Positions 18,863-55,711 of a stretch of 64,000 nucleotides of DNA are shown piece by piece; within the stretch, counting starts at the first letter, position 1, and every line of letters starts with the position of its first letter. The stretch comes from Amycolatopsis acidicola. GTDB lineage: Bacteria; Actinomycetota; Actinomycetes; Mycobacteriales; Pseudonocardiaceae. The DNA lies in NCBI RefSeq assembly GCF_007713735.2, contig NZ_VMNW02000003.1, positions 1-64,000 of the forward strand, written 5' to 3'. The translations under genes were made by a program, and so were the position numbers. Below the pieces are notes generated by a model. The model saw only the letters and a list, made by a program, of their open reading frames with translations, was not told where the DNA came from and ran no database searches.

Positions 18863-19209
18863 CCGTACTCACCGTCGAAGCCGTCGCGACCGAGGTTGCC
18901 CGTCGAAGTCCGCCAGCCTTTTGGTGACAGTGCCGGATAGCTTCGTGAGGGCGTGTGCCGGTCGTTCGGAGCTCGCTGTGTCGGCGTCGTAGGCAGAGGT
19001 CCGGCGCGGCACACGGCGTGGTTGCGTCACGCAGAAGTTTAATTTACTCTACATTAAAAATTGCACGCAGGTCGTCTCACACTGAGGAGCTTCGACGAAG
19101 AGGTCGTGCCAGGTGGTTCCGAGGTCGGGGCCGGGGACGGTCGCCTCGCCATGCCCGCAGTCGCACTGAGGGAGTGCGGAGACGCCGTGATGGTCGAGGA
19201 GCCCGGTTC
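18863..19209. other. Non-coding stretch and promoter region of the phosphotransferase
   Basis: About 350 bp. The left part has no recognisable gene. The right part holds the AT-rich motif at 19038-19060, which marks the left edge of the catabolic block. The long leader between the motif and the start codon at 19210 has no gene or structure that I can name. Confidence 0.45.
19044..19060 (+). promoter_or_regulatory. Shared AT-rich 17-nt motif, site 1
   Basis: Reads TTACTCTACATTAAAAA. Upstream of the phosphotransferase gene. It overlaps an inverted repeat TTTAAT-N9-ATTAAA at 19038-19058. See sites 2-7 at 22102, 26894, 44707, 48106, 49600 and 55684, which share A at position 3, TTA at 11-13 and A at 15. 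Confidence 0.6.
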
Positions 19210-20400
19210 ATGGTGGTGAGGGACAAGGTGCGCGCGGTCGGCCTTGCGGCGCGTGTTGGCCGGCATGTCGCCCGCGAGAAGGTCGGCCCCAAGGTCCGGC
19301 CGACCACCCCGGAGGCAGTGCCTCCGTCGGCCGAGTCGATCACGACTGAATGGCTGACCGCTGTTCTGTGCCGGAACGTTCCCGGCGCGCGCGTTGTGAA
19401 GGTCGGCCTTGGACGTGGAGATAATGGAACCAGTGCGCGGCGAGCGGTCGCCGTGACGTACAACGAAAAGGGCGCAACCGCTGGCCTGCCGACGCGGCTG
19501 TTCACGAAATCCACGGCGACGTTCGCGTCTCGGCTGCTGCTCGGCCTCACCGAGATCGTGGAGGGGGAGACGCTTTTCTACAACCGAATGCGGCCGGAGT
19601 TGACGATCCGCAGTCCACGGTCGTTCCACGCCTGCTTCGATCCGCGCACCTACCGCTCTCTCGTGCTTGTGGAGGATCTCGCGCACGAAGGCTGGAAATT
19701 TCCGGATCCACTTCACAACCGGGTCACCCGGGCCGACGCCGAGGACATGGTGTCCGAGATGGCCACGTACCACGCCGCATTCTGGGACAGTTCGCGCTTT
19801 GACACCGATCTGCGGAGATTGCGGCCCGCGCGCGAGTGGCAGGAGAACCTCAACCGCAAGGTCGGCTTCGAAAAGCGAACATTGGTCGGCCTCGAACGAG
19901 CTCGAGAAGTTGTGCCACGGGAGCTGTACGCGGACCGGAATGCGCTGTACCCCGCTTTCATGCGCTCGTTGGAGCTGCACCGCACGGCTCCGGCGACACT
20001 TCTGCACCAGGATGTGCACCTTGGGAACTGGCTGCGCGACGCGGACGGCCGGATGGGTCTCTACGATTGGCAATGTGTCGCCCGAGGACATTGGGCTCTG
20101 GACTACTCGTACGCGCTCGCCGGTGGTCTAGCGACCGAGGACCGGCGCAACTGGGAGAAGGACCTCCTGAACCTCTACCTCGAACGCTTGGGGGAGCACG
20201 GTGTCGGCGAGCCACCATCGTTCGAGGAAGCCTGGCTCGGCTACCGCCAACAGCCGATGCACGCGCTGGTGTTCGGGCTGTTCACCCTGGGCGGCAGCAG
20301 GTTCGAACCTGAGCTTCAGCCCCGTGACTACACGCTCGCAGCGATCAAGCGGATCGCCCAGCACGTAGTGGATCTGGAGTCGATCAACGCGATCGGATGA
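19210..20400 (+). CDS. Phosphotransferase family protein (aminoglycoside/choline-kinase-like)
   Basis: 396-aa protein with the fold of APH/choline kinases. The catalytic loop is HQDVHLGNWL (Asp and Asn of Brenner's motif) and the metal-binding Asp follows in GLYDWQC. The ATP-binding lobe is less conserved. Start ATG at 19210 follows GAGGAG by 8 nt. Such proteins are often found beside acyl-CoA dehydrogenase and ligase genes in actinobacterial lipid or steroid loci, where they may phosphorylate a hydroxyl group of an intermediate. The shared motif in its promoter ties it to the catabolic block rather than to antibiotic resistance. Substrate is unknown. Confidence 0.82.
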   Translation: MVVRDKVRAVGLAARVGRHVAREKVGPKVRPTTPEAVPPSAESITTEWLTAVLCRNVPGARVVKVGLGRGDNGTSARRAVAVTYNEKGATAGLPTRLFTKSTATFASRLLLGLTEIVEGETLFYNRMRPELTIRSPRSFHACFDPRTYRSLVLVEDLAHEGWKFPDPLHNRVTRADAEDMVSEMATYHAAFWDSSRFDTDLRRLRPAREWQENLNRKVGFEKRTLVGLERAREVVPRELYADRNALYPAFMRSLELHRTAPATLLHQDVHLGNWLRDADGRMGLYDWQCVARGHWALDYSYALAGGLATEDRRNWEKDLLNLYLERLGEHGVGEPPSFEEAWLGYRQQPMHALVFGLFTLGGSRFEPELQPRDYTLAAIKRIAQHVVDLESINAIG

Positions 20401-20499
20401 CGCCGTCAGCCCGTGGTGCCGGATCGGTTTGGTGAGCTCGATGTTGTGTCCGCGGCGCCTGCCGCCGTGTGGTCACCTGACTTCAGTGAGGTGTATTCG

Positions 20500-21201
20500 A
20501 TGAACGAACGGGTCAAGCTGCTCTGCGCGTGGTGTGGTCCCGCCACCGTCGTGCTCGCGTTGATCGGCTGGCTGATCGCGGGCGTCCTACCGATCCCGCC
20601 CGCGGCACATCAGAGTGCTGCGGATATCGCTGCCTTCTATGAGGATTCACCGTCGCGCACGATGGCAGGACTCATCCTGTCGGCGCTCGCGGTAGGGTTG
20701 GTGTTCCCGCTGGTGGCGCTGATCGGTGTGCACATGGTGCGGATGGAAGGCCGTACCCCGCTGATGACCTTCCTGCAATTGGTCACCGGTGCGGCGACCG
20801 GCGTGCTGCTGCTGATCCCGTTGCTGTTGATGGTGGTCTGCGCGTTCCGGCCCGACCGATCGCCCGAGTTGACATTGCTGCTCAATGATGTGGCCTGGCT
20901 GCTGTTCATCACGCCGATCGCTCCCTTCATGATCCAGAATGTCGCCATCGGTATCGCGGTACTCGCGGACCGCAACCCGGAACCGGTTTTACCGCGGTGG
21001 GTCGGTTATCTGAACTTCTGGGTGGCCTTCCTGTTCGTGCCGGACGTCCTGGCCTACTTCTTCTACAGTGGACCGTTTGCCTGGCAAGGCATCTTCGTAT
21101 TCTGGCTGGCTTTGACGGCGTATGCGGTGTGGCTTGTCACGATGGGGCTGGTCCTGCGTCGCTCGGTGAAGACGTCCGCCGCTGTGCCGGTGGCGGCATG
21201 A
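20500..21201 (+). CDS. Polytopic membrane protein, hypothetical
   Basis: 233-aa protein with about six transmembrane helices (for example LCAWCGPATVVLALIGWLIA near the start and GVLLLIPLLLMVVCAF in the middle). I recognise no characterised family. ATG at 20500 follows GTGAGG; the frame extends further upstream without a ribosome site. Its stop overlaps the start of the oxidase-subunit-III gene (ATGA), and that gene overlaps the next in the same way. It is therefore translated with two small respiratory-oxidase-like subunits and may form a complex with them. Confidence 0.75.
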   Translation: MNERVKLLCAWCGPATVVLALIGWLIAGVLPIPPAAHQSAADIAAFYEDSPSRTMAGLILSALAVGLVFPLVALIGVHMVRMEGRTPLMTFLQLVTGAATGVLLLIPLLLMVVCAFRPDRSPELTLLLNDVAWLLFITPIAPFMIQNVAIGIAVLADRNPEPVLPRWVGYLNFWVAFLFVPDVLAYFFYSGPFAWQGIFVFWLALTAYAVWLVTMGLVLRRSVKTSAAVPVAA

Positions 21202-22054: not shown

Positions 22055-22101
22055 CCCACCACTCACTCGAACGGGTGACATCTGAGTTCTGGCCAGATCT
22101 T

Positions 22102-22118
22102 TGAATCACGATTAAAAA
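22102..22118 (+). promoter_or_regulatory. Shared AT-rich 17-nt motif, site 7
   Basis: Reads TGAATCACGATTAAAAA, in the promoter region of the SCP2-like gene, about 65 nt before its ATG. It includes the inverted pair GAATC-AC-GATTA. Confidence 0.6.
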
Positions 22119-22183
22119 TCGCTAGCATGGCATCCGGCCGCCCGTCGGGGTGCGGTCCAGGCCCACAGAGACGTGGAGGAAGT

Positions 22184-22588: not shown

Positions 22589-22614
22589 CCGTTGCTTGTG
22601 GAGGGATCGTCGCA

Positions 22615-23187: not shown

Positions 23188-23217
23188 ACCGGCCGTGAAC
23201 TGGAAAGGAAAGCTGGT

Positions 23218-24753: not shown

Positions 24754-24768
24754 ACGACCGGAGGAACC

Positions 24769-26078: not shown

Positions 26079-26870
26079 TCAGATTTCCGGGGCCGGCACC
26101 AGACCTGAGAGCACTGCGCCGGTGATCCCGCCGTCCACCACGAGCGCATGACCGTTGACCCACCGGGCGCCGGGCGACACCAGGAAGAGGATCGGCTCGG
26201 CGATGTCGTCCGGCGTGGCGTGGCGACCGAGGAGGAACTTGACCCCGTCGAGGTTGTCCTTGCCCATCGACTCCTCGAAGTCGGCCAGAATGGGGGTTTC
26301 AACGGGGCCGGGGAGGATCGCGTTCATCCGGACGTTCTGCTCGACCAGCCCGGTCGCCATCGCCATGGTGTAGACCGTCACGCATTCCTTGGAGAAGTTG
26401 TACGTGTTGCCCTCCTGCGGATGGTCGCGGAACCAGTCCAACCCGGATTCGAAGGTGTCGGCCGCCAGCAGCTCCCGGATCGACTCGAGACGTTGTGCCC
26501 AGCCGAACCCGGCGGTGGAGGAGACGTTGACGATCGCGCCGCCCGGGTTCAGCCGGTCGAACATCGCCTCCGTGAGGTGGCGCAGGCCGAGAAAGTTGAC
26601 TTTGAAGACGAGTTCGGACGGCGCGGTTCCCGGGAGGCCTGCCACGTTGATGTGCGCGTCGAAGCCGGAATCGAGTTGCGCGAGGGCCTCGTCGATGCTC
26701 GCCGGGTCGGACAGGTCGATCGGGATGTGCCGCGACACAGGCACCGTGGGGTGGTTGCGGTCCAAGCTCACCACGGTCGCGCCCCCCTTGGTCAGCTGTT
26801 CGGCCACCGCCTGCCCGATTCCGGACGCGGCGCCGGTCACGACGCAGCGCAGGCCGCTCACACTCGACAT
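26079..26870 (-). CDS. Short-chain dehydrogenase/reductase
   Basis: 263-aa classical-type SDR that uses NAD(P). The cofactor motif is TGAASGIG at 12-19, NVAG stands in place of NNAG and the catalytic Tyr-Lys pair is YNFSK. The overall form with a long insertion before the active site (LLAADTFESGLDWF) resembles proteins annotated as coniferyl-alcohol or 3-alpha-hydroxysteroid dehydrogenases. It is divergent from the aldehyde dehydrogenase gene and shares with it the promoter that carries motif site 2. Alcohol oxidation followed by aldehyde oxidation is a plausible pair of reactions for the divergent genes. Confidence 0.9.
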   Translation of the reverse strand: MSSVSGLRCVVTGAASGIGQAVAEQLTKGGATVVSLDRNHPTVPVSRHIPIDLSDPASIDEALAQLDSGFDAHINVAGLPGTAPSELVFKVNFLGLRHLTEAMFDRLNPGGAIVNVSSTAGFGWAQRLESIRELLAADTFESGLDWFRDHPQEGNTYNFSKECVTVYTMAMATGLVEQNVRMNAILPGPVETPILADFEESMGKDNLDGVKFLLGRHATPDDIAEPILFLVSPGARWVNGHALVVDGGITGAVLSGLVPAPEI

Positions 26871-26893: not shown

Positions 26894-26910
26894 AATTTAA
26901 TTTAGACTAT
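26894..26910 (-). promoter_or_regulatory. Shared AT-rich 17-nt motif, site 2
   Basis: On the minus strand it reads ATAGTCTAAATTAAATT. It lies in the 103-bp divergent promoter between the SDR (start 26870) and the aldehyde dehydrogenase (start 26974). Confidence 0.65.
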
Positions 26911-26973
26911 AAAATGCGGTACGGTGTCAGCTCAAGGGCTACCGGCCGCGGCTGCGTATCGAAGGAGATTGCA

Positions 26974-28374
26974 GTGACCTCAGACGTATCGAGCGAAACC
27001 AGGCCGGCCGCCGACACCGTCGGCGACGCGGTCACGGAGCTCCGCGCCACCTTCGCGACCGGGCGGACGAAAAGTCCCGCCTGGAGAACCCGCCAGTTGG
27101 CCTGCATCGAGCGCATGCTCGACGAGCACGAGGACGAGATCGCCGCGGCGCTGGCCGACGATCTCGGGCGAACCAAGGCTGAAGCCTGGCTGGGAGACAT
27201 CGCCTCGACCAAGTCGGAAGCGACGTACGCGCGGAAGCACTTGCGGAAGTGGATGAAACGCCGCCGCACCTCGCTCTCGTTGAGCTCTTTGCCTGGCAGG
27301 GGCTGGTACCAGTACGAACCGCTCGGCGTCGTCCTGATCATCGGCCCGTGGAACTATCCGGTGTACCTCACCCTCGGGCCGCTCGTGGCCGCCGTGGCCG
27401 CGGGCAACTGCGCGGTGGTCAAGCCGTCCGAACACGCTCCCGCGTCATCGCGTTTGCTGGCCCGGCTGCTGCCGGAGTACCTCGACAGCGAGGCCGTAAC
27501 AGTCGTCGAGGGTGAAGCGCAGGTGACTCAGGAACTGCTCGCGCAAGGTGTCGATCACGCCTTCTTCACCGGCGGTACCGAAGTCGGCAAGCGGATCATG
27601 GCTGCCGCTGCCCCACACCTGACTCCGGTCACCCTCGAACTGGGCGGCAAGAGCCCGGTGATCGTGACGGGCAATGCGGACATCGAGGTGGCCGCGCGGC
27701 GGATCGCCTGGGTGAAGCTGATGAATGCCGGTCAGACCTGCATCGCGCCCGACTACGTTCTCGTCGACAGGAGTGTCCGGGACAAACTGGTCGATGCCAT
27801 TGTGCGGACCATGGGCACTTTCCGTACCGGGCAGGCGCCGTCGATGCGCATCGTCAACCGCCGCCAGTTCGATCGCCTGGCCGCTGTCCTCGAGCACTCG
27901 GACGGAGACGTCGTCCTCGGTGGGGGAACCGACGTGGACACAATGGGTATCGCGCCGACGGTGGTCGTGGACCCGAGCCCGGACTCGCCGGTGATGGAGT
28001 CGGAGATCTTCGGCCCGATCCTCCCAGTGCTCACAGTGGACTCTCTGGACGACGCGATTTCCTTCGTCAATGGACGGCCCAAGCCGCTCGCGGTGTATTT
28101 GTTCACAAAGAATAGTGCCGAGCGCGACAAGGTTCTCGGAAACACCACTTCGGGTGGCGCGGTCGTCAACCACATAGCCATGCATTGCCTCGCCCCGCAG
28201 TTGCCTTTCGGTGGAGTCGGTGACAGCGGCATCGGTGCCTACCACGGGCGATGGGGATTCGAGGCGCTGAGCCATCGAAAGGCGGTGCTGTCCAAGCCGT
28301 CCCGGCCGGATCCGTCGCTGATGTACCCGCCGTACACGGACAGGAAGCTCAAGCTGATGCGCCGCTTCTTCTGA
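26974..28374 (+). CDS. Aldehyde dehydrogenase family protein (class 3-like)
   Basis: 466-aa NAD(P)-dependent aldehyde dehydrogenase, soluble. Visible motifs are GPWNYPVYLTLGPL (class 3 fatty/aromatic aldehyde type), FTGGTEVGKRIM, the general-base Glu in LELGGKSPVIV and the nucleophilic Cys in NAGQTCIAPDY. GTG at 26974 is chosen because GAAGGAGA stands 5 nt upstream; upstream frame overlaps the divergent promoter. It would oxidise an aldehyde from the P450/SDR steps to the acid that the ligases activate. A histidine kinase gene follows after 24 nt. Confidence 0.93.
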   Translation: MTSDVSSETRPAADTVGDAVTELRATFATGRTKSPAWRTRQLACIERMLDEHEDEIAAALADDLGRTKAEAWLGDIASTKSEATYARKHLRKWMKRRRTSLSLSSLPGRGWYQYEPLGVVLIIGPWNYPVYLTLGPLVAAVAAGNCAVVKPSEHAPASSRLLARLLPEYLDSEAVTVVEGEAQVTQELLAQGVDHAFFTGGTEVGKRIMAAAAPHLTPVTLELGGKSPVIVTGNADIEVAARRIAWVKLMNAGQTCIAPDYVLVDRSVRDKLVDAIVRTMGTFRTGQAPSMRIVNRRQFDRLAAVLEHSDGDVVLGGGTDVDTMGIAPTVVVDPSPDSPVMESEIFGPILPVLTVDSLDDAISFVNGRPKPLAVYLFTKNSAERDKVLGNTTSGGAVVNHIAMHCLAPQLPFGGVGDSGIGAYHGRWGFEALSHRKAVLSKPSRPDPSLMYPPYTDRKLKLMRRFF

Positions 28375-31047: not shown

Positions 31048-31057
31048 GAGGGCGGAA

Positions 31058-31906: not shown

Positions 31907-31924
31907 GTCCCTGGAGGAAAAGTC

Positions 31925-32728: not shown

Positions 32729-32732
32729 ACCC

Positions 32733-37940: not shown

Positions 37941-37941
37941 G

Positions 37942-39198: not shown

Positions 39199-39205
39199 GG
39201 CTCTC

Positions 39206-44706: not shown

Positions 44707-44723
44707 AATTTAACACAGACTAA
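44707..44723 (-). promoter_or_regulatory. Shared AT-rich 17-nt motif, site 3
   Basis: On the minus strand it reads TTAGTCTGTGTTAAATT. Placed in the 57-bp divergent gap between the four-helix membrane protein and the quinone oxidoreductase. Confidence 0.65.
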
Positions 44724-44744
44724 GAAATGTGGATACGGGTTCGC

Positions 44745-44757
44745 TACGCTGATGCGA
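44745..44757 (+). promoter_or_regulatory. Putative -10 element of a leaderless oxidoreductase transcript
   Basis: TACGCT (44746-44750 region) followed by GATGCG and then the ATG at 44757: a TAnnnT hexamer 6 nt before the start codon, with no ribosome site. Confidence 0.4.
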
Positions 44758-45757: not shown

Positions 45758-46906
45758 TCAGCGGGCGAGGTCCCGCCCGATGATCTCTTTCATGATCGCG
45801 GTCGTCCCGCCGTAGATCGTCTCGATCCGCGTGTCCAGGTACGCCCTCGCGACCGGGTACTCGGTCATGTAGCCGTACCCGCCGTGGAGCTGCAGGCAGC
45901 GGTCCACCAGCCGTTTCTGCAGTTCGCTGATGTACCACTTGCCCTTGGCCGCGTCGACGGGTGTCAGTTCTCCGGCGTTGAACGCCAGCGCGGAGTCATC
46001 CACATAGGACTGAGCAATGTCGATCTCGGTCGCCATCTCCGCTAGCTCGAACCGCACGTGCTGGAAGTCCCCGATCGCTTGGCCGAAAGCGCGGCGCTCG
46101 AAGCAATAACGGCGGGTGTCCTCGAAGATCGCACGGCAGGTGGCGATCGCCTTGGCGGAGACGCCGAGGCGCTCCCTCGGAAGGTGACTCATCAGGTGGT
46201 GCAGGCCCCTGCCTTCGGTGCCGAGCAGGTTGGCGGCGGGAACACGGAGGTCTTCGAAGAACAGTTCGGCGGTGTCCTGTCCCGGCAGCCCGACCTTGTC
46301 GAGCTTGCGGCCCCGGACGAATCCGGGCATGTCCCGCTCCACGACGAACAGGCTGAAGCCCTTCGAGCCGGCGTCCGGATCCGTGCGTGCCGCGACGATC
46401 ACGAGGTCGGCCATGATGCCGCTGCTGATGAACGTCTTCTGTCCGTTGAGGATCCAGTCCGCGCCGTCCTTCCTGGCTGTGGTCCGGATCCCCTGCAGAT
46501 CGCTGCCGGCCCCGGGCTCGGTCATCGCGAGCGCGCCGATGAGCTCACCGGCGGCCATCCCGGGCAGCCAGCGTTGTTTCTGCTCGTCGGTGGTCAGGTC
46601 GAGTAGGTAGTGCAGGACGAGGTCGTCCTGCAGGGATATGGTGAGGCCGAAGGACAACGCGTGGATCTTCGCGATCTCTTCGCACACGATCATCCGGTAC
46701 CGGTAGTCCTGTTCACCGGCGCCGCCGTATATCTCGGGGATCTGCAGTCCGTAGATCCCCTGTTTGGCCGCGGCGGCGAAGACCGAGCGGTCGATCCAGC
46801 GTTCGGCGTCCCAGCGTTCGTGATGGGGCACGACCTCCCTGGCGACGAACTCCCGGACTGTTTCCCGGTAGGCCTCGTGATCCGCGGTGTACAGTGTCCG
46901 CCGCAT
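45758..46906 (-). CDS. Acyl-CoA dehydrogenase
   Basis: 382-aa FAD enzyme that introduces the alpha-beta double bond into an acyl-CoA, the first step of each beta-oxidation round. The family signatures are ALAMTEPGAGSDLQGIRTTA (FAD and substrate contact) and YGYMTEYPVARAYLDTRIET followed by IYGGTTAIMKEII at the C-terminus, which also holds the catalytic-base region. ATG at 46906 lies 4 nt after the thiolase stop; the upstream in-frame part overlaps that gene. It forms a two-gene unit with the thiolase. Confidence 0.95.
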   Translation of the reverse strand: MRRTLYTADHEAYRETVREFVAREVVPHHERWDAERWIDRSVFAAAAKQGIYGLQIPEIYGGAGEQDYRYRMIVCEEIAKIHALSFGLTISLQDDLVLHYLLDLTTDEQKQRWLPGMAAGELIGALAMTEPGAGSDLQGIRTTARKDGADWILNGQKTFISSGIMADLVIVAARTDPDAGSKGFSLFVVERDMPGFVRGRKLDKVGLPGQDTAELFFEDLRVPAANLLGTEGRGLHHLMSHLPRERLGVSAKAIATCRAIFEDTRRYCFERRAFGQAIGDFQHVRFELAEMATEIDIAQSYVDDSALAFNAGELTPVDAAKGKWYISELQKRLVDRCLQLHGGYGYMTEYPVARAYLDTRIETIYGGTTAIMKEIIGRDLAR

Positions 46907-46910
46907 GTCG

Positions 46911-48065
46911 TCAGCCCAGTCGCTCGATGATCGTGACGTTGGCCTGGCCACCGCCTTCACACATGGTCTGCAGCCCGAACCGTCCGCCGGTGCGCTCGAG
47001 CTCGTGCAGGAGCGTGATCATGATCCTGGCGCCGGACGCGCCGAGCGGATGACCGAGCGAAATGGCGCCGCCGTTGACGTTGGTCTTCGCGGGGTCGGCC
47101 CCGGTCTCCTTGAGCCAGGCCAGCACGACGCTGGCGAACGCTTCGTTGACCTCGAACAGGTCGATGTCGTCCACACCGAGCCCGGTCTTCTCCAGCGCCC
47201 GCTGCGTGGCGGGCAGCGGTGCGATCAGAAGGTTGACCGGGTCCGCGCCCAGCACGGACAGGTGGTGGATACGCGCGCGTGGCTTCAAGCCGTGGGTTCG
47301 CACGGCTTCCTCCGAGGCCACCAGGATCGCGGCGGAGGCGTCGGAGATCTGGCTGGAGACCGCGGCGGTGAGACGTCCGCCGGGGACCAGAGTCTTCAGT
47401 CCGGCCATCTTTTCCAGTGAGGTGTCCGCGCGAGGACCCTCGTCCTGTTTGACGTCTCCGAAGGGGATGATTTCCCGGTCGAAACGACCCTCTTCGCGAG
47501 CGTGGACGGCACGCTGGTGACTGCGGAGCGCGAACTCCTCCATGTCGGCGCGGGTGAAGCCGAACGACTCGGCGATGGTCTCGGCGGACCGGAATTGCGA
47601 GATCTCCTGCGTGCCGTACCGCGCTTCCCAGTCCTGGGAGCCCGACCACGGATCGGTTGCCCCGTAAGGCTCTCCGGCGGTGAAGGAGCTGAGGATGGGG
47701 AACTGGGTCATGTTCTGCACGCCACCGGCCACGACCAGGTCGGCCGTGCCGCTCATGACCGCCTGCGCGGCGAAGTGCACGGCCTGCTGCGACGAACCGC
47801 ATTGCCGGTCGATCGTCACGCCGGGCACGGTCTCCGGTAACCCGGCGGCCAGCGCGCAGGTGCGTGCGATGTCGCCCGCCTGCGAACCGATCGCATCGAG
47901 GCAGCCGTAGATCACGTCGTCGATGGCCGCGGGATCGAAGTCGCCGCGGGCGACGAGTGTGCGGATGACGTGGGCGCCGAGGTCGGCCGGATGTGTGGTG
48001 GCGAATCCGCCCTTGCGGCGGCCGACCGGGGTGCGGATGGCGTCGACGAGATAGGCGTCGGGCAT
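46911..48065 (-). CDS. Thiolase (acetyl-CoA acyltransferase)
   Basis: 384-aa degradative-type thiolase that cleaves 3-ketoacyl-CoA. The nucleophilic Cys is in DRQCGSSQQAVHFAA, the catalytic His in GHPLGASGARI and the second Cys in MCEGGGQANV. ATG at 48065 follows GGAGGAG. It is transcribed before the acyl-CoA dehydrogenase from a promoter that carries motif site 4. Complete and of usual length. Confidence 0.95.
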   Translation of the reverse strand: MPDAYLVDAIRTPVGRRKGGFATTHPADLGAHVIRTLVARGDFDPAAIDDVIYGCLDAIGSQAGDIARTCALAAGLPETVPGVTIDRQCGSSQQAVHFAAQAVMSGTADLVVAGGVQNMTQFPILSSFTAGEPYGATDPWSGSQDWEARYGTQEISQFRSAETIAESFGFTRADMEEFALRSHQRAVHAREEGRFDREIIPFGDVKQDEGPRADTSLEKMAGLKTLVPGGRLTAAVSSQISDASAAILVASEEAVRTHGLKPRARIHHLSVLGADPVNLLIAPLPATQRALEKTGLGVDDIDLFEVNEAFASVVLAWLKETGADPAKTNVNGGAISLGHPLGASGARIMITLLHELERTGGRFGLQTMCEGGGQANVTIIERLG

Positions 48066-48105: not shown

Positions 48106-48122
48106 AATTTAACATAGATTCA
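48106..48122 (-). promoter_or_regulatory. Shared AT-rich 17-nt motif, site 4
   Basis: On the minus strand it reads TGAATCTATGTTAAATT, about 40 nt upstream of the thiolase ATG, in the 70-bp gap after the TetR gene. A promoter motif between two co-directional genes argues that thiolase and dehydrogenase have their own promoter. Confidence 0.65.
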
Positions 48123-48135
48123 AAACAATGAGGAT

Positions 48136-48756
48136 CTAGTGTGGCGTAGCGAACCCGAGGCCGTGCCGGATGAGACTCTGGGCAGTCTCTATGACGGCGG
48201 AGAGGGAACCCTGTTGCGGGTTCCACCACTCGGTGGTCCAGTTCAAGGCGCCCATCACGAGCATGCGGGCAGCCCGCAGATCGAGGTCCGGTCGCAGCTG
48301 GCCCGCACGGCGTGCCGCCTCCAGCAGGCCACGCCACAAGCCGATGTACTCGGCGCCCTCTGCTCGCAGTCGGTCGCGGACCTCGTCTGGAAGCTGGCCG
48401 ATGTTCCGGGTCACGGCGGTGGCGAAATCCGAAAGTTGCAGTTCCACTTGAAGGTGGGCTTGTACCGCGGTCTCGATGCGGTCCATCGGCGCGGTGGCCG
48501 ACGGCAGTCCGGCGAGCGCCGACTCGACATGCTCTCTCAGTCGTCGCTGGCCAACGGCCATCACCTCGGCGATGAGATCTTCCCGTGAGTCGAAGTAGTA
48601 GTAGACGGCGGGCGCGCGGAGCTCGGCCGAGTCGGCGATGTCCGACAGCCTGGTCTCGGAATAGCCCTTCGCGCTGAGGATCGTGGCCGCGGCGGCGAGG
48701 ATGCGCTCGCGGGTCGCCGACGGCGTGACCGGCTTCTTGGATTTTCCCTTGGCCAT
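48136..48756 (-). CDS. TetR-family transcriptional regulator
   Basis: 206-aa regulator. The N-terminal helix-turn-helix reads RILAAAATILSAKGYSETRL, then SDIADSAELRAPAVYYYFDS. The C-terminal half is helical and should bind a small ligand, often an acyl-CoA in such loci. It is one nt behind the SDR gene and co-transcribed with it from the promoter with site 5. It is the only TetR-type gene in the catabolic block, hence the first candidate for binding the shared 17-nt motif and for autoregulation. Ligand unknown. Confidence 0.92.
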   Translation of the reverse strand: MAKGKSKKPVTPSATRERILAAAATILSAKGYSETRLSDIADSAELRAPAVYYYFDSREDLIAEVMAVGQRRLREHVESALAGLPSATAPMDRIETAVQAHLQVELQLSDFATAVTRNIGQLPDEVRDRLRAEGAEYIGLWRGLLEAARRAGQLRPDLDLRAARMLVMGALNWTTEWWNPQQGSLSAVIETAQSLIRHGLGFATPH

Positions 48757-48757: not shown

Positions 48758-49555
48758 TCAGGGCATCGAGTAGCCGCCGCTGACCGAGAACACCTGTCCG
48801 GTCACTTGGCGCGCGGTGCGTTCGGACGAGACCCACACGACCGCGTTCGCGATGTCGTCGGCCGTGGTGAGCCTGCGCAGGGGGATTCCCTTCGTCATCG
48901 CCTCGATCTGCTTTTCGTTGAAGACGGCTTCCGGATCGGCGGCCCACAGGCTCTTCGGTCCGACGGCGTCCTTGCCTTCTGGCACGACGAGGCCGGGGCA
49001 CACGACATTGGATCGGATCCCGTGCCTGCCATGCTCTTTGGCGACTGTGCGGGCGAGTGCCAGTAACGATGCTTTCGTCGCGCCATAGACGCCTTGGCGG
49101 ATTTCGCCGAACGCGGCATCGCTGGCGATGAAGACGATGGAACCCTGTCCTGCCTCCCGCATCGGGGTGATCGCCGCCTGGGTGCAGTCGATCGCCGCGA
49201 AGACGTTGATCTCGACCAGTTTCTGCCAGCGAGCACGATCGGTGTCTTCGGTGAAGAAACCGGGCACACTCCAGCCGGCGTTGTTGACGAGCGCGTCGAT
49301 TCCACCCCAGCGGTCGATCAGTTCGCCGACCACCCGGGCGCCCGCCCCCTCGTGGGTCAGGTCCTGCTCGACGACTTCGGCGGCGGTCGCACCGCGCTCG
49401 AGTGCTTCCGCCTGGACCTTGGCAGCCTGCTCGCCGTCGACGTCGCAGATCAGCAGCCGCGCGCCTTCGGCCGCGAAACCGTGGACTATGCCCCGTCCGA
49501 TGTTGGAGGCCCCGCCGGTGACGAGAACGCGGGCTCCGCGCAGGTCGAGATCCAT
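48758..49555 (-). CDS. Short-chain dehydrogenase/reductase
   Basis: 265-aa classical SDR: cofactor motif TGGASNIGRG, NNAGW, and the active-site Tyr-Lys in YGATK, with a C-terminal SVSGGYSMP. ATG at 49555 follows AAAGGAG by 5 nt. It would oxidise a 3-hydroxyacyl-CoA or another secondary alcohol. First gene of the minus-strand unit with tetR; divergent from the MaoC-led operon, sharing its promoter. Confidence 0.92.
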   Translation of the reverse strand: MDLDLRGARVLVTGGASNIGRGIVHGFAAEGARLLICDVDGEQAAKVQAEALERGATAAEVVEQDLTHEGAGARVVGELIDRWGGIDALVNNAGWSVPGFFTEDTDRARWQKLVEINVFAAIDCTQAAITPMREAGQGSIVFIASDAAFGEIRQGVYGATKASLLALARTVAKEHGRHGIRSNVVCPGLVVPEGKDAVGPKSLWAADPEAVFNEKQIEAMTKGIPLRRLTTADDIANAVVWVSSERTARQVTGQVFSVSGGYSMP

Positions 49556-49599
49556 CCGTGCTCCTTTGCCGGTGCCTGCCGTGGTTGACTCCGGGATCC

Positions 49600-49616
49600 T
49601 ATCTAATTTATCTTCA
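49600..49616 (-). promoter_or_regulatory. Shared AT-rich 17-nt motif, site 5
   Basis: On the minus strand it reads TGAAGATAAATTAGATA. The weakest of the seven copies. It lies in the 94-bp divergent promoter between the SDR-tetR unit and the MaoC operon, so one site could control both, including tetR itself. Confidence 0.5.
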
Positions 49617-49649
49617 ATTTGAAAATGCTGTCGGCGCACTGGAGCGTGT

Positions 49650-50102
49650 ATGAGGATCTTCAACGGCATCGCCGAGCTCGCGGGCGCGGTGGGTGAGGAA
49701 CTGGGCAGCAGCGACTGGACGGTCGTCGATCAGGAGCGCATCAACGCGTTCGCCGGCGCGACGGGTGACCACCAATGGATCCACGTCGACGTCGAGAAGG
49801 CGGCGACCGGCCCGTTCGGTGGCACCATCGCGCACGGGCTCCTCACTCTGTCGATGCTGCCGACCTTCCTGCACCAGATCTACCGAGTCGACAACGTCTC
49901 GATGGCCGTGAACTACGGCCTGAACAAGGTGCGGTTGCCCGCTCCGGTGCCGGCGGGGGCCAAGTTGCGTGCGACGTCCAGGCTCGTGGAGGTGACTCCG
50001 CTCGACGGCGCGGTACAGGCGGTGCTGTCGACGACGATCGAGATCGAGGACGCTCCGAAGCCGGCCTGTGTTGTCGAGTCGATCGTGCGGTACCTGTCGT
50101 GA
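49650..50102 (+). CDS. MaoC-like hot-dog hydratase
   Basis: 150-aa single hot-dog domain. The catalytic Asp and His are in [14 protein letters not shown], the motif of R-specific enoyl-CoA hydratases; [11 protein letters not shown] follows. It would hydrate an enoyl-CoA. ATG at 49650 follows GGAG. It starts a plus-strand operon with SDR and four crotonase genes. Stop overlaps the SDR start (GTGA). Confidence 0.9.
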
Positions 50103-50839
50103 CCGGCGGGCTGCTGAGCGGCCGTGCCGCGGTAGTCACCGGTGCGGCGCAAGGGATCGGGCTGGCGATCGCGCGATCACTGCACGCACAGGGAGCGAAG
50201 GTCGCGCTGGTCGACCTCGACGGTGACCGGGCCGGGCAGGCGGCTGCCGAACTCGGCGGCGCGGTGCTGCCGCTGGCCTGCGACGTCACTGACGAGGAGT
50301 CGATGGACACGGTCCTGCGGCGGACGGTCGAGGAGTTCGGGTCGCTGGATGTCCACGTCAACAACGCGGGCATCACCCGCGACGCCTCGCTGCGCAAGAT
50401 GACCGTGCAGGATTTCGAGGCGGTCATGGACGTGCACTTGAAGGGCACCTGGCTCGGTGTTCGTGCGGCGTCGGCGATCATGCGGGAGGCCGGGCGGGGC
50501 TCGATCGTGAACATGTCGTCGCTGTCCGGGAAGTCCGGCAACCCGGGCCAGACGAACTACAGCGCCGCCAAGGCCGGCATCGTCGGGCTCACCAAGGCCG
50601 CCGCGAAAGAGTTGGCGCACAAGGGTGTCCGGGTCAACGCCGTGCAGCCGGGGCTCATCCGCACCCCTATGACCGAGGCGATGCCATCCGATGTCTTCGC
50701 CGAACGAGAGGCGGGCGTGCCGATGAAGCGCGCGGGCGAACCGGACGAGGTCGCGGGCGCCGTGCTGTTCCTCGCATCGGACCTTTCCAGCTACATGACC
50801 GGAGCCGTCCTCGAAGTCGGAGGCGGGCGGTTGATGTGA
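50099..50839 (+). CDS. FabG-like short-chain dehydrogenase/reductase
   Basis: 246-aa SDR: cofactor motif [16 protein letters not shown] in [15 protein letters not shown], active-site YSAAK and C-terminal VLEVGGG. Similar to FabG-type 3-ketoacyl reductases or 3-hydroxyacyl-CoA dehydrogenases. GTG at 50099 overlaps the MaoC stop. MaoC next to FabG-like SDR suggests a hydration then oxidation pair. Stop overlaps the next gene. Confidence 0.92.
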
Positions 50840-51636
50840 CTGGTGACGATTTGGTTCGGGTCGACGAGCCCGAGCCCGGAATCATCCGGCTGACCTTGAA
50901 CCGGCCGGATCGGCTGAACGCGCTCACCCCGGCACTGCTGGACCGCTTCACCGAAGCGCTCGGGACCGCAGCGCGCAGCGAGTCCGCGCGTGTCGTCATA
51001 TTGTCCGGTGCCGGGCGCGCGTTCTGCTCCGGCTTCGATCTCGGAGAGATCGCGGAGACCGGGACACAAGGGCTGCCTGAACTGCTCACGCACCAGGAGG
51101 GCTGGGCGAGAGCTGTCGAGCGGGTCGTCGAACTACCGATACCGGTGATCGCCGCCGTGCAGGGACCGGCGGTCGGCGCCGGCCTGTCGCTGGCGATGGC
51201 CGCGGATCTGCGGGTGGCCACGCCATCCGCGCGATTCGGTGCCGCCTTCGTGCGGATCGGCCTTTCCGGCGCCGATCTCGGACTGTCCTGGAGCCTGCCG
51301 CGCGTGATCGGGATGGGCGCCGCCGCGGAGCTGATGCTCACGGGCCGCGGCATCGACGGACACGAGGCGGTACGGCTCGGAATGGTCAACAAACTGTGCG
51401 AGGGAGCCGAACTGGCCCCGACCGCGCTCGCGCTGGCCAGGGAGATCGCGGCCAACAGCCCGTTCGGCGTCCGGCTGACGAAACAGGCTTTGCGAAGCGG
51501 GGTCGATGCGCCGTCGCTGAGGGCCGCGGTGGACAACGAGAACCGCAACCAGATCCTGGCCTCCCGCACCGCGGACATGGCTGAGGCCTTGCGGGCCAGG
51601 GAACAGCGCCGCGAACCGGTCTATGAGAACAGGTGA
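50836..51636 (+). CDS. Enoyl-CoA hydratase/isomerase (crotonase) 1
   Basis: 266-aa crotonase. Oxyanion-hole segments: [13 protein letters not shown] and [17 protein letters not shown]. The usual glutamate pair of hydratases is not obvious ([14 protein letters not shown] in the second active-site loop), so an isomerase, hydrolase or C-C lyase function is also possible. GTG at 50836 overlaps the SDR stop. First of four tandem crotonase genes. Confidence 0.9.
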
Positions 51637-51640
51637 GAAT

Positions 51641-52417
51641 GTGACCACGAAGGACGAGCCCGCGGTCGTCGCCCGGCTCGACGGTGCGATCGGCCGGATC
51701 GTGCTCAACCGGCCCGACGCGATGAACGCCATCACCGTCGAACTGGGCAGACAGCTCGAGGAAGCGCTGCGTGAACTCGCCGAGTCGGCGGCCGTCATCG
51801 TGATCCGCGGCGCGGGCGGCAACTTCTCCGTCGGCGGGGATTTCCACGAGCTCGAGCGGCTTCGAACCGACGGGCCGGCGGCCTTGAAACCGTTGTTCGA
51901 GAACTTCGGGCGAGCTTGTACGACGATCGCGGAACTGGCGGTGCCCGTAGTCACGGTCGTCGAAGGCTACGCGATGGCCGGTGGTTTCGAGCTGATGCAG
52001 GCCTCCGACATCGCCTTGGTCCGTGCTGACGCCAAACTGGCGGACAACCATGCCAACTTCGGGCAAGTGCCCGGCGGTGGTGGTTCCCAGCGGCTGGCAC
52101 GGCTGGTCGGCCGGCAGCGCGCGCTCGGACACATTCTCTCCGGTGAACGGCTGTCCGGGGCACAGGCCGCCGAGTGGGGACTGGCCTACCGCAGCTTCGC
52201 GCCAGAGGAGTTCGAAGAGGGCGTCACCGCGTTCGTCGCGCGAATCGCCGGCAAGGACCGGATCGCGCTCGGGAAGATCAAGAAACTCGTGGACGACGGC
52301 CTGCGAGGGTCGCTGGCGGAAGGGCTGGCACTGGAACTGCGCACGGTGGTCGACCACGTCGCCGGGGCATCGGCAGGCGCCGGGATCGCCACCTTCACCC
52401 AGGGCGAAGGAGCCTGA
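51641..52417 (+). CDS. Enoyl-CoA hydratase/isomerase (crotonase) 2
   Basis: About 258 aa. Oxyanion-hole segments: GGNFSVGGDFHEL and GYAMAGGFELMQASDIA, with the second loop HANFGQVPGGGGSQRLARL. GTG at 51641 is used; ATG at 51623 is an alternative six codons upstream, inside the previous gene. The insertion is small and no extra domain is seen. Confidence 0.9.
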   Translation: MTTKDEPAVVARLDGAIGRIVLNRPDAMNAITVELGRQLEEALRELAESAAVIVIRGAGGNFSVGGDFHELERLRTDGPAALKPLFENFGRACTTIAELAVPVVTVVEGYAMAGGFELMQASDIALVRADAKLADNHANFGQVPGGGGSQRLARLVGRQRALGHILSGERLSGAQAAEWGLAYRSFAPEEFEEGVTAFVARIAGKDRIALGKIKKLVDDGLRGSLAEGLALELRTVVDHVAGASAGAGIATFTQGEGA

Positions 52418-52418
52418 A

Positions 52419-53228
52419 ATGACGGACAAGCTGATCGATTCGGGGCCGGTCCTGCTGGACCTCGACGCGGACGGGGTCGCGCGGTTGAGGCTCAACCGGC
52501 CGGAAGCGGCGAACGGCATGAACGTCGAGCTGCTGAAGGCATTGCACAGCGCGATCATGCTGGTGCACGGGGAAAGCCGGGTCCGGGCGGTGGTGCTGTC
52601 TGGCGAGGGTCGGCATTTCTGCGCCGGCGGTGACGTGCGGGATTTCGCGAGCAAGGGCGAGGGCTTGCCGGACTACCTGCGTGAGGCGACGTCCTGGCTC
52701 CAGATCGCGGTGTCGGCACTCGTGCAGCTGCGGCCACCGGTGATCGCGGCGGTGCACGGGTTCGCCGCCGGGGGAGGCGGGTTCGGGTTGGCCTGCGCCG
52801 CCGATCTCGTCGTCGCGGCGGAGTCGGCGAAGTTCTTTTCCGGTGCGGTGCGTGTGGGGATGGCACCGGACGCCGGGGTCACGGTGACGCTGGCCCGGCT
52901 GGTCGGCTTGCGCAAGGCGATGGAAATCCTGCTCACCAACCCGACATTGACCGCACGCGAGGCGCTCGACGCGGGACTACTCACGAAGGTCGTGCCGGAC
53001 GAGACGGTGCGCGACGAAGCTTTGGCACTCGCGCGGACGATTGTCGCGTTGCCGCCGAAGGCGATCGCCGCGACGAAGCGCCTGCTGTGGCAGGGCTTGG
53101 GATCGTCGCTGGATTCGCAGCTGCCCGACGAGGCTCGCACGGTGTCGGAGCTATCCGGCACCGCCGACTCCCGCGAGGGCCTGGCTGCAGTGATCGTGCG
53201 CCGGTCGCCGAATTTCACGGGAGAGTAG
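52419..53228 (+). CDS. Enoyl-CoA hydratase/isomerase (crotonase) 3
   Basis: 269-aa crotonase. Oxyanion-hole segments: GRHFCAGGDVRDF and GFAAGGGGFGLACAADL; the loop VGMAPDAGVTVTLARLVG resembles delta3-delta2 isomerases (PaaG/ECI-like). ATG at 52419 is 1 nt after the previous stop. Confidence 0.9.
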   Translation: MTDKLIDSGPVLLDLDADGVARLRLNRPEAANGMNVELLKALHSAIMLVHGESRVRAVVLSGEGRHFCAGGDVRDFASKGEGLPDYLREATSWLQIAVSALVQLRPPVIAAVHGFAAGGGGFGLACAADLVVAAESAKFFSGAVRVGMAPDAGVTVTLARLVGLRKAMEILLTNPTLTAREALDAGLLTKVVPDETVRDEALALARTIVALPPKAIAATKRLLWQGLGSSLDSQLPDEARTVSELSGTADSREGLAAVIVRRSPNFTGE

Positions 53229-53230
53229 CC

Positions 53231-54004
53231 GTGACCGACTGCGTACTCACAGAAGACCAGGACGAAATCCGGACGATCACTCTCAATCGGCCGGAAAAGC
53301 GCAACGCGATCGATCTCGAACTGCGCGTCGTGCTAGCCGAGGCGCTGGAAGCGGCGATGGAGGACACCGCGGTCCGAGTCGTGATTCTCACCGGTGCCGC
53401 GGGCACGTTCTGCTCGGGCGGGGACATCTCGACGATGCGACGGCAACCGGCAGCGGAAACCGTGCCTCGTGCGCAGGCCGCTCAACGTGTGATCCGGGCG
53501 ATCTGGACCGGCCCGAAGCCGGTCATCGCTGCTGTCGAAGGGTACGCGTTCGGGGCGGGCACGGCGCTCGCGCTCGCGTGTGACCGTGTTGTCGCGTCGA
53601 CCGGCAGCACCTTCAGCACGACGTTCACGGGTGTCGGTCTCGCGGGGGACATGGGAATTTTCGCTTCGCTCCCCGCCCGCGTGGGGTCCGCGACCGCACG
53701 GCAGTTGATGTTGCTGCCCCGTCGGATTCCCGGCACCGAAGCCCGCGACCTTGGCATGGTCGACCGCCTGGCGGAGCCAGGGCGTGCGCTGGAGTCCGCG
53801 CTTGAGGAGGCCGCCGTGATCGCGGGCGGGCCTCCGCTCGCGCTCGCGGGTATCAAGTTCATGTTCGCTTCCTGGCCCCGGGATCCGTGTGAGGTTCTCG
53901 ACCGGGAAGTCGAGTTGCAGTCCCGCTTGTTCGACACCGAAGACTTCGCCGAAGGTGTCGCCGCCTTCCGTGAACGGCGGCGTCCGTCGTTTCACGGACA
54001 CTGA
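53231..54004 (+). CDS. Enoyl-CoA hydratase/isomerase (crotonase) 4
   Basis: 257-aa crotonase. Oxyanion-hole segments: AGTFCSGGDISTMRR and GYAFGAGTALALACDRV, second loop FTGVGLAGDMGIFASLPARV. GTG at 53231 follows the previous stop by 2 nt. The four copies differ strongly from each other, so they are not recent duplicates and probably act on different intermediates. Confidence 0.9.
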   Translation: MTDCVLTEDQDEIRTITLNRPEKRNAIDLELRVVLAEALEAAMEDTAVRVVILTGAAGTFCSGGDISTMRRQPAAETVPRAQAAQRVIRAIWTGPKPVIAAVEGYAFGAGTALALACDRVVASTGSTFSTTFTGVGLAGDMGIFASLPARVGSATARQLMLLPRRIPGTEARDLGMVDRLAEPGRALESALEEAAVIAGGPPLALAGIKFMFASWPRDPCEVLDREVELQSRLFDTEDFAEGVAAFRERRRPSFHGH

Positions 54005-54034
54005 ACCAGCGCTCAGCCAACGGAGGTTGGAGGC

Positions 54035-55639
54035 ATGCAGGAATCCTTGTGGCACAAGGACGAATCCGTCCCGCTTGTCGACCACACAGTCGGGTCGTTG
54101 CTCGCGGCCCGCGCCGGCGAGCACGCGGATGCGCCCGCATTGGTGGGAAACGCTTATCGCGATGGCTCGCAACGTCGGCTTACCTACGGGGAGCTCTACG
54201 CCGAGGCGCGGCAGGTTGCACGCGCGCTGCTGCGCCTGGCCGAGCCCGGGGAGTTCGTGGCGTTGTGGGCGCAGAACATCGTGGAATGGCCGATCATCCA
54301 GTACGGGGCCGCGCTCGCCGGCGTGTACCTGGTGGCGCTCAACCCTGTCCTGCGCAAGAACGACCTGAGCTACGCGCTCAACCACTCCGAGTCGGTGGTG
54401 CTGGTCCACGCCGATCGTAGCCGCGAATACGACATGGCGTCGGTGGTCGCGTCAGTGCGCGACGAGTGCCCGAAGCTTCGTCACGTGATCAGTCTGTCCG
54501 ATTGGGACAGCTGGCTGGACTCCGGCGACGAACACGAACCACTTTCCGACTGCGATACCGATTCGCCGGTGATGTTGCAGTACACGTCGGGTACTACCGG
54601 CAAACCCAAGGGAGTCCTCCTGAGGCATCGTTCGCTCGTGAACGTCGCCAAACTGACGATGGACACCGCGGAGGTTCAGCCCGGTGCCGTGACCGTCAAT
54701 CCGCTGCCGATGTTCCACACCGCCGCTTGCGTGATCGGCACGCTCGGCCCGCTGTGGCTGGGTGGGTGCGAAATCCTGATCGAGCGGTTCGAACCGTCGG
54801 CCGTGCTGGATGTTCTGCGCACCGAACGCGCAGACGTGTTGTTCTATGTACCGACCGTGCTGGGCAGCCTGATCGAGACGGCCAAGAAAACAGGCGAACC
54901 CGCGCCGCGCCTGACAACCGTGATGGGCGGAGCGGCGAAAGTGCCGCGGCCGATGATCGAAGCTGCGGAAACCCTCTTCGGCGCCTCGGTGCACAACTTG
55001 TTCGGGCAGACGGAACTGGCTCCCGTGCTGACGATGACCCGGCGCGGGGACACCCGCGACGACCAGGTGAACACTGTCGGCAGGCCGCTGCCTCAGGTCG
55101 ACTGCAAGATCATCGATCCGGCGACCGGTCAGATCCAGCCTCTCGGCGTGCGAGGGGAGATCTGCGCGCGCGGCTACCAGCAGCTGGTGGAATACCTGCA
55201 CGATCCCGACGCGACGGCACGGACGGTCGACGCGGAGGGCTGGGTGCACACCGGTGACCTCGGCAGCATGGACGAGCGCGGCATGATCACACTCGGCGGG
55301 CGGATCAAGGACCTCATCATCAGAGGCGGAGAGAACATCGCACCGGCGGAGATCGAAGCCTGCCTTCTGAACCACGAAGCTGTGGCCGAAGTGTCCGTCA
55401 TCGCCGTGCCGGACGACAAGTGGGGGGAGACCGTGGGCGCGATCGTTCGCTTGCGGGACCGGCCACGGCCTGGGTTGCGTGACGAACTCGACGCGGTCTG
55501 CCGCGCCCGCCTCGCGGCGTACAAAATCCCGCAGCACTGGCTGTTCGCCGACGAACTGCCGACGACTCCGACCGGGAAAGTGCAGAAGTTCAAGCTCGTC
55601 GACGCCGTCATGCGTGGCGCGCTGACTCAGTTGCCCTGA
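54035..55639 (+). CDS. AMP-dependent acyl-CoA ligase
   Basis: 534-aa adenylate-forming enzyme. P-loop YTSGTTGKPKG, A5-like FGQTELAPV, hinge GGRIKDLIIRGGENIAPAEI and catalytic Lys in PTTPTGKVQKFK. Similar to long-/medium-chain or aromatic acid ligases. Last gene of the plus-strand operon started by MaoC, 30 nt after crotonase 4. Substrate unknown. Confidence 0.93.
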   Translation: MQESLWHKDESVPLVDHTVGSLLAARAGEHADAPALVGNAYRDGSQRRLTYGELYAEARQVARALLRLAEPGEFVALWAQNIVEWPIIQYGAALAGVYLVALNPVLRKNDLSYALNHSESVVLVHADRSREYDMASVVASVRDECPKLRHVISLSDWDSWLDSGDEHEPLSDCDTDSPVMLQYTSGTTGKPKGVLLRHRSLVNVAKLTMDTAEVQPGAVTVNPLPMFHTAACVIGTLGPLWLGGCEILIERFEPSAVLDVLRTERADVLFYVPTVLGSLIETAKKTGEPAPRLTTVMGGAAKVPRPMIEAAETLFGASVHNLFGQTELAPVLTMTRRGDTRDDQVNTVGRPLPQVDCKIIDPATGQIQPLGVRGEICARGYQQLVEYLHDPDATARTVDAEGWVHTGDLGSMDERGMITLGGRIKDLIIRGGENIAPAEIEACLLNHEAVAEVSVIAVPDDKWGETVGAIVRLRDRPRPGLRDELDAVCRARLAAYKIPQHWLFADELPTTPTGKVQKFKLVDAVMRGALTQLP

Positions 55640-55683
55640 CCCGCACCCGCACGGGTTGTCCCGGCCCCTGCGCATCGGTTAAT

Positions 55684-55700
55684 CTAATTACGATTAAATT
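55684..55700 (+). promoter_or_regulatory. Shared AT-rich 17-nt motif, site 6
   Basis: Reads CTAATTACGATTAAATT. It overlaps a perfect inverted repeat TTAATC-N7-GATTAA (55679-55697) and ends two bases before the GGAGG ribosome site of the next ligase, so a bound protein would block both promoter and start. Confidence 0.65.
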
Positions 55701-55711
55701 TGGAGGCAGTC

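Follow-up and report, generated by a model that had tools for sequence, protein, structure and literature searches.

The DNA analysed here comprises the first 64,000 nucleotides of contig NZ_VMNW02000003.1 from Amycolatopsis acidicola (assembly GCF_007713735.2; "the window" below), and its subject is an AT-rich motif that recurs in the promoters of a large catabolic gene cluster. The cluster encodes an Mce-type lipid importer, a CYP268-like P450, acyl-CoA ligases, a Rieske oxygenase, acyl-CoA dehydrogenases, enoyl-CoA hydratases and thiolases, together with two separate TetR-type regulators, TetR1 and TetR2, whose genes stand about 25 kb apart, the second of them outside the window (Table 1). 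The genome (G000) has 9,465,182 bases (9.47 Mb) in 195 contigs, and the window lies on the contig that we label C129.

Twelve AT-rich dyads in one gene cluster

Seven copies of the motif had been described in the window by the original prediction, and the letters, coordinates and strands of all seven proved correct, as did the letters said to be invariant (A at position 3, TTA at 11-13 and A at 15; 7/7 sites). In leave-one-out matrix scoring of both strands of the window the omitted sites reached ranks 3 to 13. With the full matrix the seven scored 23.8-29.7, and every window match at or above 8.4 was one of them or a reverse-strand or shifted echo; the best unrelated match scored 8.2, and the statement that the motif occurs nowhere else in the window is therefore right. 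Other details needed revision: the present gene models place just two of the seven sites, 26894 and 49600, in divergent intergenic regions, where three had been claimed, and the fifth site (48106), first assigned to the TetR1 operon, is found between TetR1 and the thiolase gene and would serve the thiolase operon, the predicted SDR_b-TetR1 operon carrying site 6 (49600).

Genome-wide counts were made by pattern searches with mismatches. The pattern TKARTCTANRTTAAAWW, with at most three mismatches, gave 30 rows, against 10 for the reversed pattern. The 12 rows with at most two mismatches represent nine distinct sites and their reverse-strand echoes, all at C129:19-77 kb, and four of the nine were new. 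Among the 18 rows with three mismatches, 7 were on C129, adding three distinct sites (49600, 55684 and 76430), and 11 were scattered over other contigs. The total is twelve sites inside one 58-kb stretch that continues beyond the end of the window. A symmetric 20-bp matrix trained on the twelve scored its own sites at 21.8-35.5 and the 11 scattered matches at no more than 17.8, a gap that is partly by construction since the matrix was trained on these sites. A random spread of matrix matches over the genome, named at the outset as the observation that would count against a regulon, was not what we found, the strong matches being confined to the cluster.

Alignment of the twelve sites reveals a common, imperfect dyad that reads roughly wwTYKAATnTAnATTMRAww; its centre falls between positions 7 and 8 of the motif as first aligned. 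The arms of the dyad, of the TTKAAT-N4-ATTMAA type, are 4 bases apart; the inverted repeats quoted earlier for single copies (TTTAAT-N9-ATTAAA and TTAATC-N7-GATTAA) are present but are not the common dyad. The half-site derived from 189 non-redundant sites in other genomes reads wwT(T/C)(T/G)AATnT. In the present gene models the candidate sites stand close before start codons, most of them 3-71 bp upstream and site 1 at 113 bp; two model starts (ALDH and the TTG of FadD_c) overlap their own sites by 1-3 bp, and several start codons are uncertain.

Table 1. Candidate operator sites and annotated genes of the cluster (positions in the window unless prefixed; scores from the symmetric matrix; operons predicted).
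Feature	Coordinates	Strand	Genes served or basis	Score; spacing; remarks
Candidate operator site 1	19041..19060		upstream of APH gene	32.0; 113 bp before GTG 19174 (start uncertain)
Candidate operator site 2	22099..22118		upstream of SCP2 and ECF sigma factor genes	24.9; 8 bp before ATG 22127 (true SCP2 start may be 22184)
Candidate operator site 3	26894..26913		between divergent SDR_a (-) and aldehyde dehydrogenase (+)	31.2; 23 bp before SDR_a ATG
Candidate operator site 4	44707..44726		upstream of zinc-binding (quinone-oxidoreductase-like) dehydrogenase	21.8, weakest of the twelve; abuts ATG 44727
Candidate operator site 5	48106..48125		promoter of thiolase_a-acyl-CoA dehydrogenase operon (-)	31.7; 40 bp before thiolase ATG 48065
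Candidate operator site 6	49600..49619		between SDR_b-TetR1 operon (-) and MaoC-SDR-ECH operon (+)	28.5; 44 and 33 bp from the two divergent starts
Candidate operator site 7	55681..55700		promoter of FadD_c-Rieske oxygenase operon	29.6; 11 bp before GTG 55712, directly upstream of GGAGG
Five additional sites past the window	C129:64381-76558			pattern search; listed singly below
Additional site	C129:64384 (L040:1381-1400)		SnoaL-ECH downstream
Additional site	C129:71451 (L040:8448-8467)		CoA-transferase III/NMO downstream
Additional site	C129:75292 (L040:12292-12311)		acyl-CoA dehydrogenase-TetR2 downstream
Additional site	C129:76430 (L040:13427-13446)		metallo-beta-lactamase-fold gene downstream
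Additional site	C129:76539 (L040:13539-13558)		APH-fold gene downstream
APH-fold phosphotransferase	19174..20400	+	Pfam PF01636	start codon uncertain
SCP2, ECF sigma factor, FadD_a, CYP268-like P450	22127..26025	+	Pfam
SDR_a	26079..26870	-	Pfam
Aldehyde dehydrogenase (ALDH)	26908..28374	+	Pfam, NCBIfam	start uncertain
Mce-type lipid importer (YrbE pair, ATPase, six MlaD/Mce proteins) and MMPL protein	30220..42799	+	Pfam
Zinc-binding dehydrogenase	44727..45713	+	Pfam
Acyl-CoA dehydrogenase ACAD_a	45758..46960	-	Pfam
thiolase_a	46911..48065	-	Thiolase_N/C; NCBIfam acetyl-CoA C-acetyltransferase	above cut-off
TetR1, first candidate repressor	48136..48756	-	TetR_N, TetR_C_24
SDR_b, head of TetR1 operon	48758..49555	-	adh_short	ATG 49555 preceded by AAAGGAG
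MaoC, SDR_c, four enoyl-CoA hydratases, acyl-CoA ligase FadD_b	49650..55639	+	Pfam
FadD_c, Rieske oxygenase alpha subunit, CoA-transferase, thiolase_b, HMG-CoA-synthase-like/DUF35 protein	55712..63182	+	Pfam, NCBIfam, PDB sequences
TetR2	C129:73425-73991			outside the window

Distribution of the motif and of the TetR subfamily

The comparison covered 77 loci, drawn from the best 80 matches out of a set of 221, and 36 TetR-bearing genomes of our choice, one entry each, which are a subset of the genomes behind those loci; L112 (a duplicate of L110) and L042-L052 were left out of the symmetric-matrix, half-site, promoter, shuffle, dyad and gene-order counts. A strict 16-mer (at most one mismatch) is present in 29 of the 36 genomes. 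It matches 88 times in the forward reading and 4 times when reversed as a control, and some of the forward matches lie on contigs other than those of the TetR genes. Within the genus 19 genomes were searched, our own included. The 16-mer occurs five times in G000 and four times in G018, which alone of the rest has close relatives of both TetR1 and TetR2, and is absent from the other 17. Three of these 17 (G003, G006 and G010) have distant TetR relatives only, 38-48% identical; G006 retains relatives of SDR_a, SCP2, P450, FadD_a and ALDH, and the 20 kb fetched from it hold one site above 12 (20.0 with the symmetric matrix). Of 249 genomes drawn evenly from the order, 22 have the 16-mer. Four of the 249 match the TetR at 1e-40, and two of those four are among the 22; the remaining 20 belong to the 245 genomes with no such match.

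The twelve-site matrix gave 228 matches on the 77 loci, against 56 in the same sequences reversed. With the symmetric matrix at a threshold of 21, 76 loci yielded 194 matches, 192 of them outside conserved coding sequence, whereas 60 column-permuted matrices averaged 16.7 on the same loci (sd 21, max 117). The cluster was seen around TetR relatives in Pseudonocardiaceae, Nocardia, Rhodococcus, Streptomyces, Streptosporangiaceae and Mycobacterium.

For gene classes with at least four rows we counted the promoters that carry the motif. It is found upstream of most MaoC_a (19/20), SnoaL-ECH (18/20), SDR_b (25/28), ACAD_c (23/29), metallo-beta-lactamase-fold (MBL, 10/14), thiolase_a (26/37) and FadD_a genes (5/8), of half of those for APH_b (4/8), and of smaller fractions for FadD_c (6/18), FdRed (4/15), SDR_d (3/12), FadD_b (3/12), TetR2 (15/77), ECH_b (4/24), P450 (2/14), AmineOx (2/15), ACAD_b (2/16), TetR1 (3/24), RieskeA (2/20) and ACAD_a (3/35). 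No motif was counted upstream of SCP2thiolase (0/13), CoAtransf (0/10), SDR_c (0/17), thiolase_b (0/11), ALDH (0/12), SDR_a (0/10), DUF35 (0/9), CoAT3 (0/6), DUF7064 (0/5) or ECH_d (0/10). Permuted matrices gave fractions of 0 to 0.15 per promoter class, but 0.26 for SnoaL-ECH, and shuffling in 40-bp blocks, which keeps the AT-rich patches in place, gave means of 0.11-0.59 for the six best classes (for SDR_b, 0.35 where the real count is 25). The proposal that the motif ties distant genes to one pathway is supported by its conservation upstream of many orthologues, well beyond what shuffles give; the link of site to gene is unevenly conserved, as SDR_a and ALDH at site 3 show.

An unbiased count of dyads placed the top ones in 7/20 MaoC_a windows and 6/29 ACAD_c windows (at most 2 in shuffles of either). 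The counts for MaoC_a and SDR_b are not independent, since 13 of the 20 MaoC_a promoters lie in a divergent region shared with SDR_b. Of the 28 SDR_b orthologues, 23 have a TetR gene next in line on the same strand, and one lies at most 2.5 kb behind ACAD_c in 17/29, the ends of ACAD_c being ragged because the query is a broken frame.

Two TetR paralogues as candidate repressors

Computed properties of the sites, namely their confinement, dyad symmetry, position and conservation together with a TetR subfamily, suggest that they are operators of a local TetR regulon bound by TetR1 and/or TetR2, a reading to which we give a probability of about 0.83 from sequence evidence. A TetR-type helix-turn-helix protein is encoded inside the cluster, and the dyad is found in the core promoters, including the one before the regulator's own operon, whose genes we infer to be co-transcribed. 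Dimers of TetR1 and/or TetR2 would bind the dyad in these promoters and block transcription; the SDR_b-TetR1 operon would be controlled through site 6, and the TetR2 operon (ACAD_c, then TetR2) probably through the site at C129:75292. A CoA thioester formed early by one of the cluster's acyl-CoA ligases would probably release the repressors, so that P450 oxidation and β-oxidation of the lipid would be switched on jointly.

TetR2 is the sole close paralogue of TetR1 in the genome (56% identical), and the near relative G018 carries relatives of both. In a midpoint-rooted tree of 118 TetR rows TetR1 falls within a clade of 24 rows (support 100/99). The recognition helix reads RAPA-YYYF in the TetR1 clade and QAPA-YYYF in the TetR2 rows, so that the helices of the two proteins differ mainly at one place, R versus Q; the QAPA-YYYF rows, TetR2 included, do not form one clade in this tree. 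The AlphaFold model of TetR1 has a typical TetR fold (predicted local distance difference test, pLDDT, 89.9), and among 50 listed PDB folds Bacillus FadR gives the highest TM-score (0.75-0.78), followed by AibR (0.75). Both have PDB entries with acyl-CoA, which makes an acyl-CoA effector likely for a catabolic regulator, and by this analogy the ligand of TetR1 and TetR2 is probably an acyl-CoA.

The substrate is probably a bulky lipid, methyl-branched or ring-bearing, as judged mainly from the CYP268-like P450. The closest solved structure to this P450 is CYP268A2 (E 3.8e-153, PDB), and CYP268 is grouped with P450 families that oxidise steroids and hydrocarbons in the available text of PMC6408508. 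The Rieske oxygenase resembles aromatic-ring dioxygenases among PDB sequences, and the combination of three acyl-CoA ligases, this oxygenase, an SCP2-type thiolase, a DUF35 protein, the Mce importer and the P450 makes it probable that the lipid is bulky, branched in its side chain and perhaps ring-bearing. Rubber degradation was also considered as the pathway; its marker PF09995 has nine matches in the genome, none of them inside the cluster.

Several observations weigh against the proposed regulon. The unbiased dyad count shows no excess for thiolase_a (3/42 windows; shuffles at most 3). In other loci the motif is missing from the promoters of SDR_a, ALDH and CoAT3, all three of which have a site in the present cluster; conservation is low at FadD_c and at TetR2 and TetR1 themselves, and the site list of the cluster contains none immediately before the Mce operon. 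The strict 16-mer is missing from 7 of the 36 TetR-bearing genomes; of the four genomes in the order-wide draw that have the TetR, G152 and G275 contain no strict 16-mer, only weak or distant matrix matches. Seven of the 77 loci (L093, L095, L101, L105, L114, L117 and L124) have no matrix match, several of these being a TetR gene with few or no cluster genes, and column-permuted matrices still match AT-rich intergenic DNA (at most 117, compared with the real 194). By E-value the best fold matches of TetR1 are DarR, which has cyclic-nucleotide ligands, and PfmR, not FadR, which leaves the acyl-CoA effector unsure. Finally, two paralogues are present, either of which may be the binder.

The nomination of TetR1 as the first candidate binder, supported by the co-occurrence of motif and TetR genes, is best amended to admit TetR2 as an equally good one. 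That TetR2 is the sole or chief reader of the sites, or that a heterodimer of the two proteins reads them, TetR1 by itself being a minor or non-binding partner, is a serious possibility to which we give somewhat less than an even chance. The profile of the subfamily has at least two matches in 31 of the 36 genomes, although the second match is partial in G292 and two of the matches in G305 and in G307 are halves of a fused gene; in G024 a single TetR2-type gene is accompanied by one nearby site, and the R/Q difference in the recognition helices would also suit this variant. Against it, the SDR_b/MaoC_a footprint sits at the TetR1 operon, and C-G pairing of half-sites is no more frequent than expected (13 observed, 15.9 expected, in the 189 non-redundant sites). 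As a whole the half-site table shows a slight departure from independence (chi-square p 0.037; G-with-other 1 versus 7.4 expected, G-T 36 versus 28.5), and the test is therefore weak on the heterodimer.

A further idea, which we put forward tentatively and hold to be rather less probable than not, is that the two TetRs, retained together by genomes of many actinobacterial families, read one operator over ~58 kb and report two different CoA-thioester intermediates, a two-input switch that would be an unfused counterpart of Mce3R. If true, it would serve an undescribed degradation of isoprenoid or ring lipids with an Mce importer and a CYP268-like P450.

Pseudonocardia halophobica and Mycobacterium pinniadriaticum have fused double TetR genes (L164:8166-9491 and L165:8718-10103), the halves of which are distant relatives of TetR1 and TetR2 on long branches, their placement being unsure. 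Several mycobacteria have two subfamily TetR genes head to tail, 3 bases apart (L106:9293-10642, L109:2201-3547 and L123:9263-10606); the L109 pair adjoins divergent YrbE genes, a layout resembling that of mce3R, which stands beside mce3.

Readings without a TetR protein fare worse. With their TAnnnT words and their place shortly before start codons, the patches could be taken for mere -10 elements of ordinary promoters in GC-rich DNA; we consider this very improbable, since the strict motif is absent from the 17 same-genus genomes without a close TetR pair, block shuffling that keeps the AT-rich patches abolishes it, there is no strong match elsewhere in the genome, and the link to TetR genes would be left unexplained. 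An operator overlapping a -10 element is a likely arrangement. A promoter element of the cluster's ECF sigma factor (22615-23187) would likewise account for one motif at many promoters, and the sigma gene stands behind SCP2 and site 2, with a homologue at 1e-25 in 15 of the 36 genomes. Co-occurrence rejects this explanation, which we regard as very improbable: 19 of the 21 genomes with no homologue at 1e-25 keep the strict motif, homologues within the loci of at most 20 kb around TetR genes were found only in L043, L052 and L063, and the motif is a dyad rather than a two-part promoter. Just as implausible is binding by a different cluster-encoded regulator, for instance the LuxR-type response regulator (29084-29701) of the cluster's two-component pair: the motif follows the TetR genes and, in the fetched loci as distinct from whole genomes, the response regulator was matched only in L085 and the kinase in none.

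If the TetR regulon holds, the motif provides a regulatory signature for a large and widely conserved catabolic cluster and helps to delimit its pathway, adding APH-fold kinases, SCP2 and a metallo-beta-lactamase-fold protein whose roles are obscure; the two candidate regulators would give a handle for finding the inducer, and hence the substrate.

Comparison with known systems and other features of the locus

The regulon appears, from sequence, to be of a familiar kind, its unusual feature being two paralogous repressors in one cluster. The open-access literature that we searched, mostly by listing, held no description of the regulon or of the cluster; a survey of mycobacterial TetR motifs gives its logos as figures (PMC4482099, available text), against which identity could not be checked.

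The initial view that the motif is unlike those of KstR and KstR2 was upheld, neither pattern occurring at the sites. The KstR operator follows the pattern TnnAACnnGTTnnA, which has no exact match in the window and 9 one-mismatch matches (5.9 expected), none overlapping a site and the nearest ending 18 bp before site 2. With the KstR equivalog TetR1 scores 25.2 bits, far below the cut-off of 280. For KstR2 the operator in mycobacteria and rhodococci is the 14-bp AnCAAGnnCTTGnT, located 22-82 bp before the starts of repressed genes (PMC3068626, available text); a search with one mismatch found it three times (0.58 expected) and at none of the sites. As described in that text, KstR2 is similar in being a local, autoregulated TetR repressor of a catabolic cluster with an intergenic dyad operator. 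It differs in its gene set and in being one regulator rather than two paralogues, and TetR1 matches it weakly (E 6.9e-7).

Mce3R of Mycobacterium tuberculosis resembles the present system in TetR-type control of mce and lipid genes and in bringing two TetR units together, but is a single double protein with asymmetric 25-bp sites (PMC11667970, available text), whereas here the genes are separate and the sites are dyads; single sites are imperfect, and some asymmetry is therefore possible. TetR1 scores 54 bits against Mce3R. The genome has a fused double TetR of its own (L160:7372-8586; C129:195.4-196.6 kb) whose best PDB match is Mce3R (97 bits), with no motif within the 15 kb fetched around it. 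We therefore rejected an Mce3R identity for TetR1 and TetR2, the fused gene being the Mce3R-like one.

Bacillus FadR and AibR (3whb, 3whc, 5gpc and 5k7z) are alike in fold and, by analogy, in an acyl-CoA ligand, but are only ~20-23% identical to TetR1 and are not top by E-value; TetR1 does not belong to Bacillus-type FadR (NF053878; 66.6 bits against a cut-off of 200). KstR3 of Mycolicibacterium neoaurum, likewise a TetR protein, represses an operon that includes genes for an aldolase, a DUF35-type protein and an acyl-CoA dehydrogenase; it is set apart from TetR1 and TetR2 by its description as the regulator of a small operon for sterol side-chain degradation (PMC10398937, main text, in which the words "motif" and "palindrome" are absent).

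Some further features of the locus deserve mention. The acyl-CoA dehydrogenase gene before TetR2 (C129:74044-75255; L040:11044-12255) has a frame that is broken relative to the intact one of Amycolatopsis acididurans, which may reflect an assembly error or decay. The best NCBIfam match of the ECF sigma factor is the BldN family, below the cut-off, and genes for a histidine kinase and the LuxR-type response regulator (28399-29701) directly precede the Mce importer operon. The protein encoded at 61857-63182 joins an HMG-CoA-synthase-like part (109 bits; cut-off 244) to a C-terminal DUF35 domain and is flanked by a thiolase and an SCP2-type thiolase, a neighbourhood that brings to mind the archaeal grouping of thiolase, DUF35 and HMGCS.

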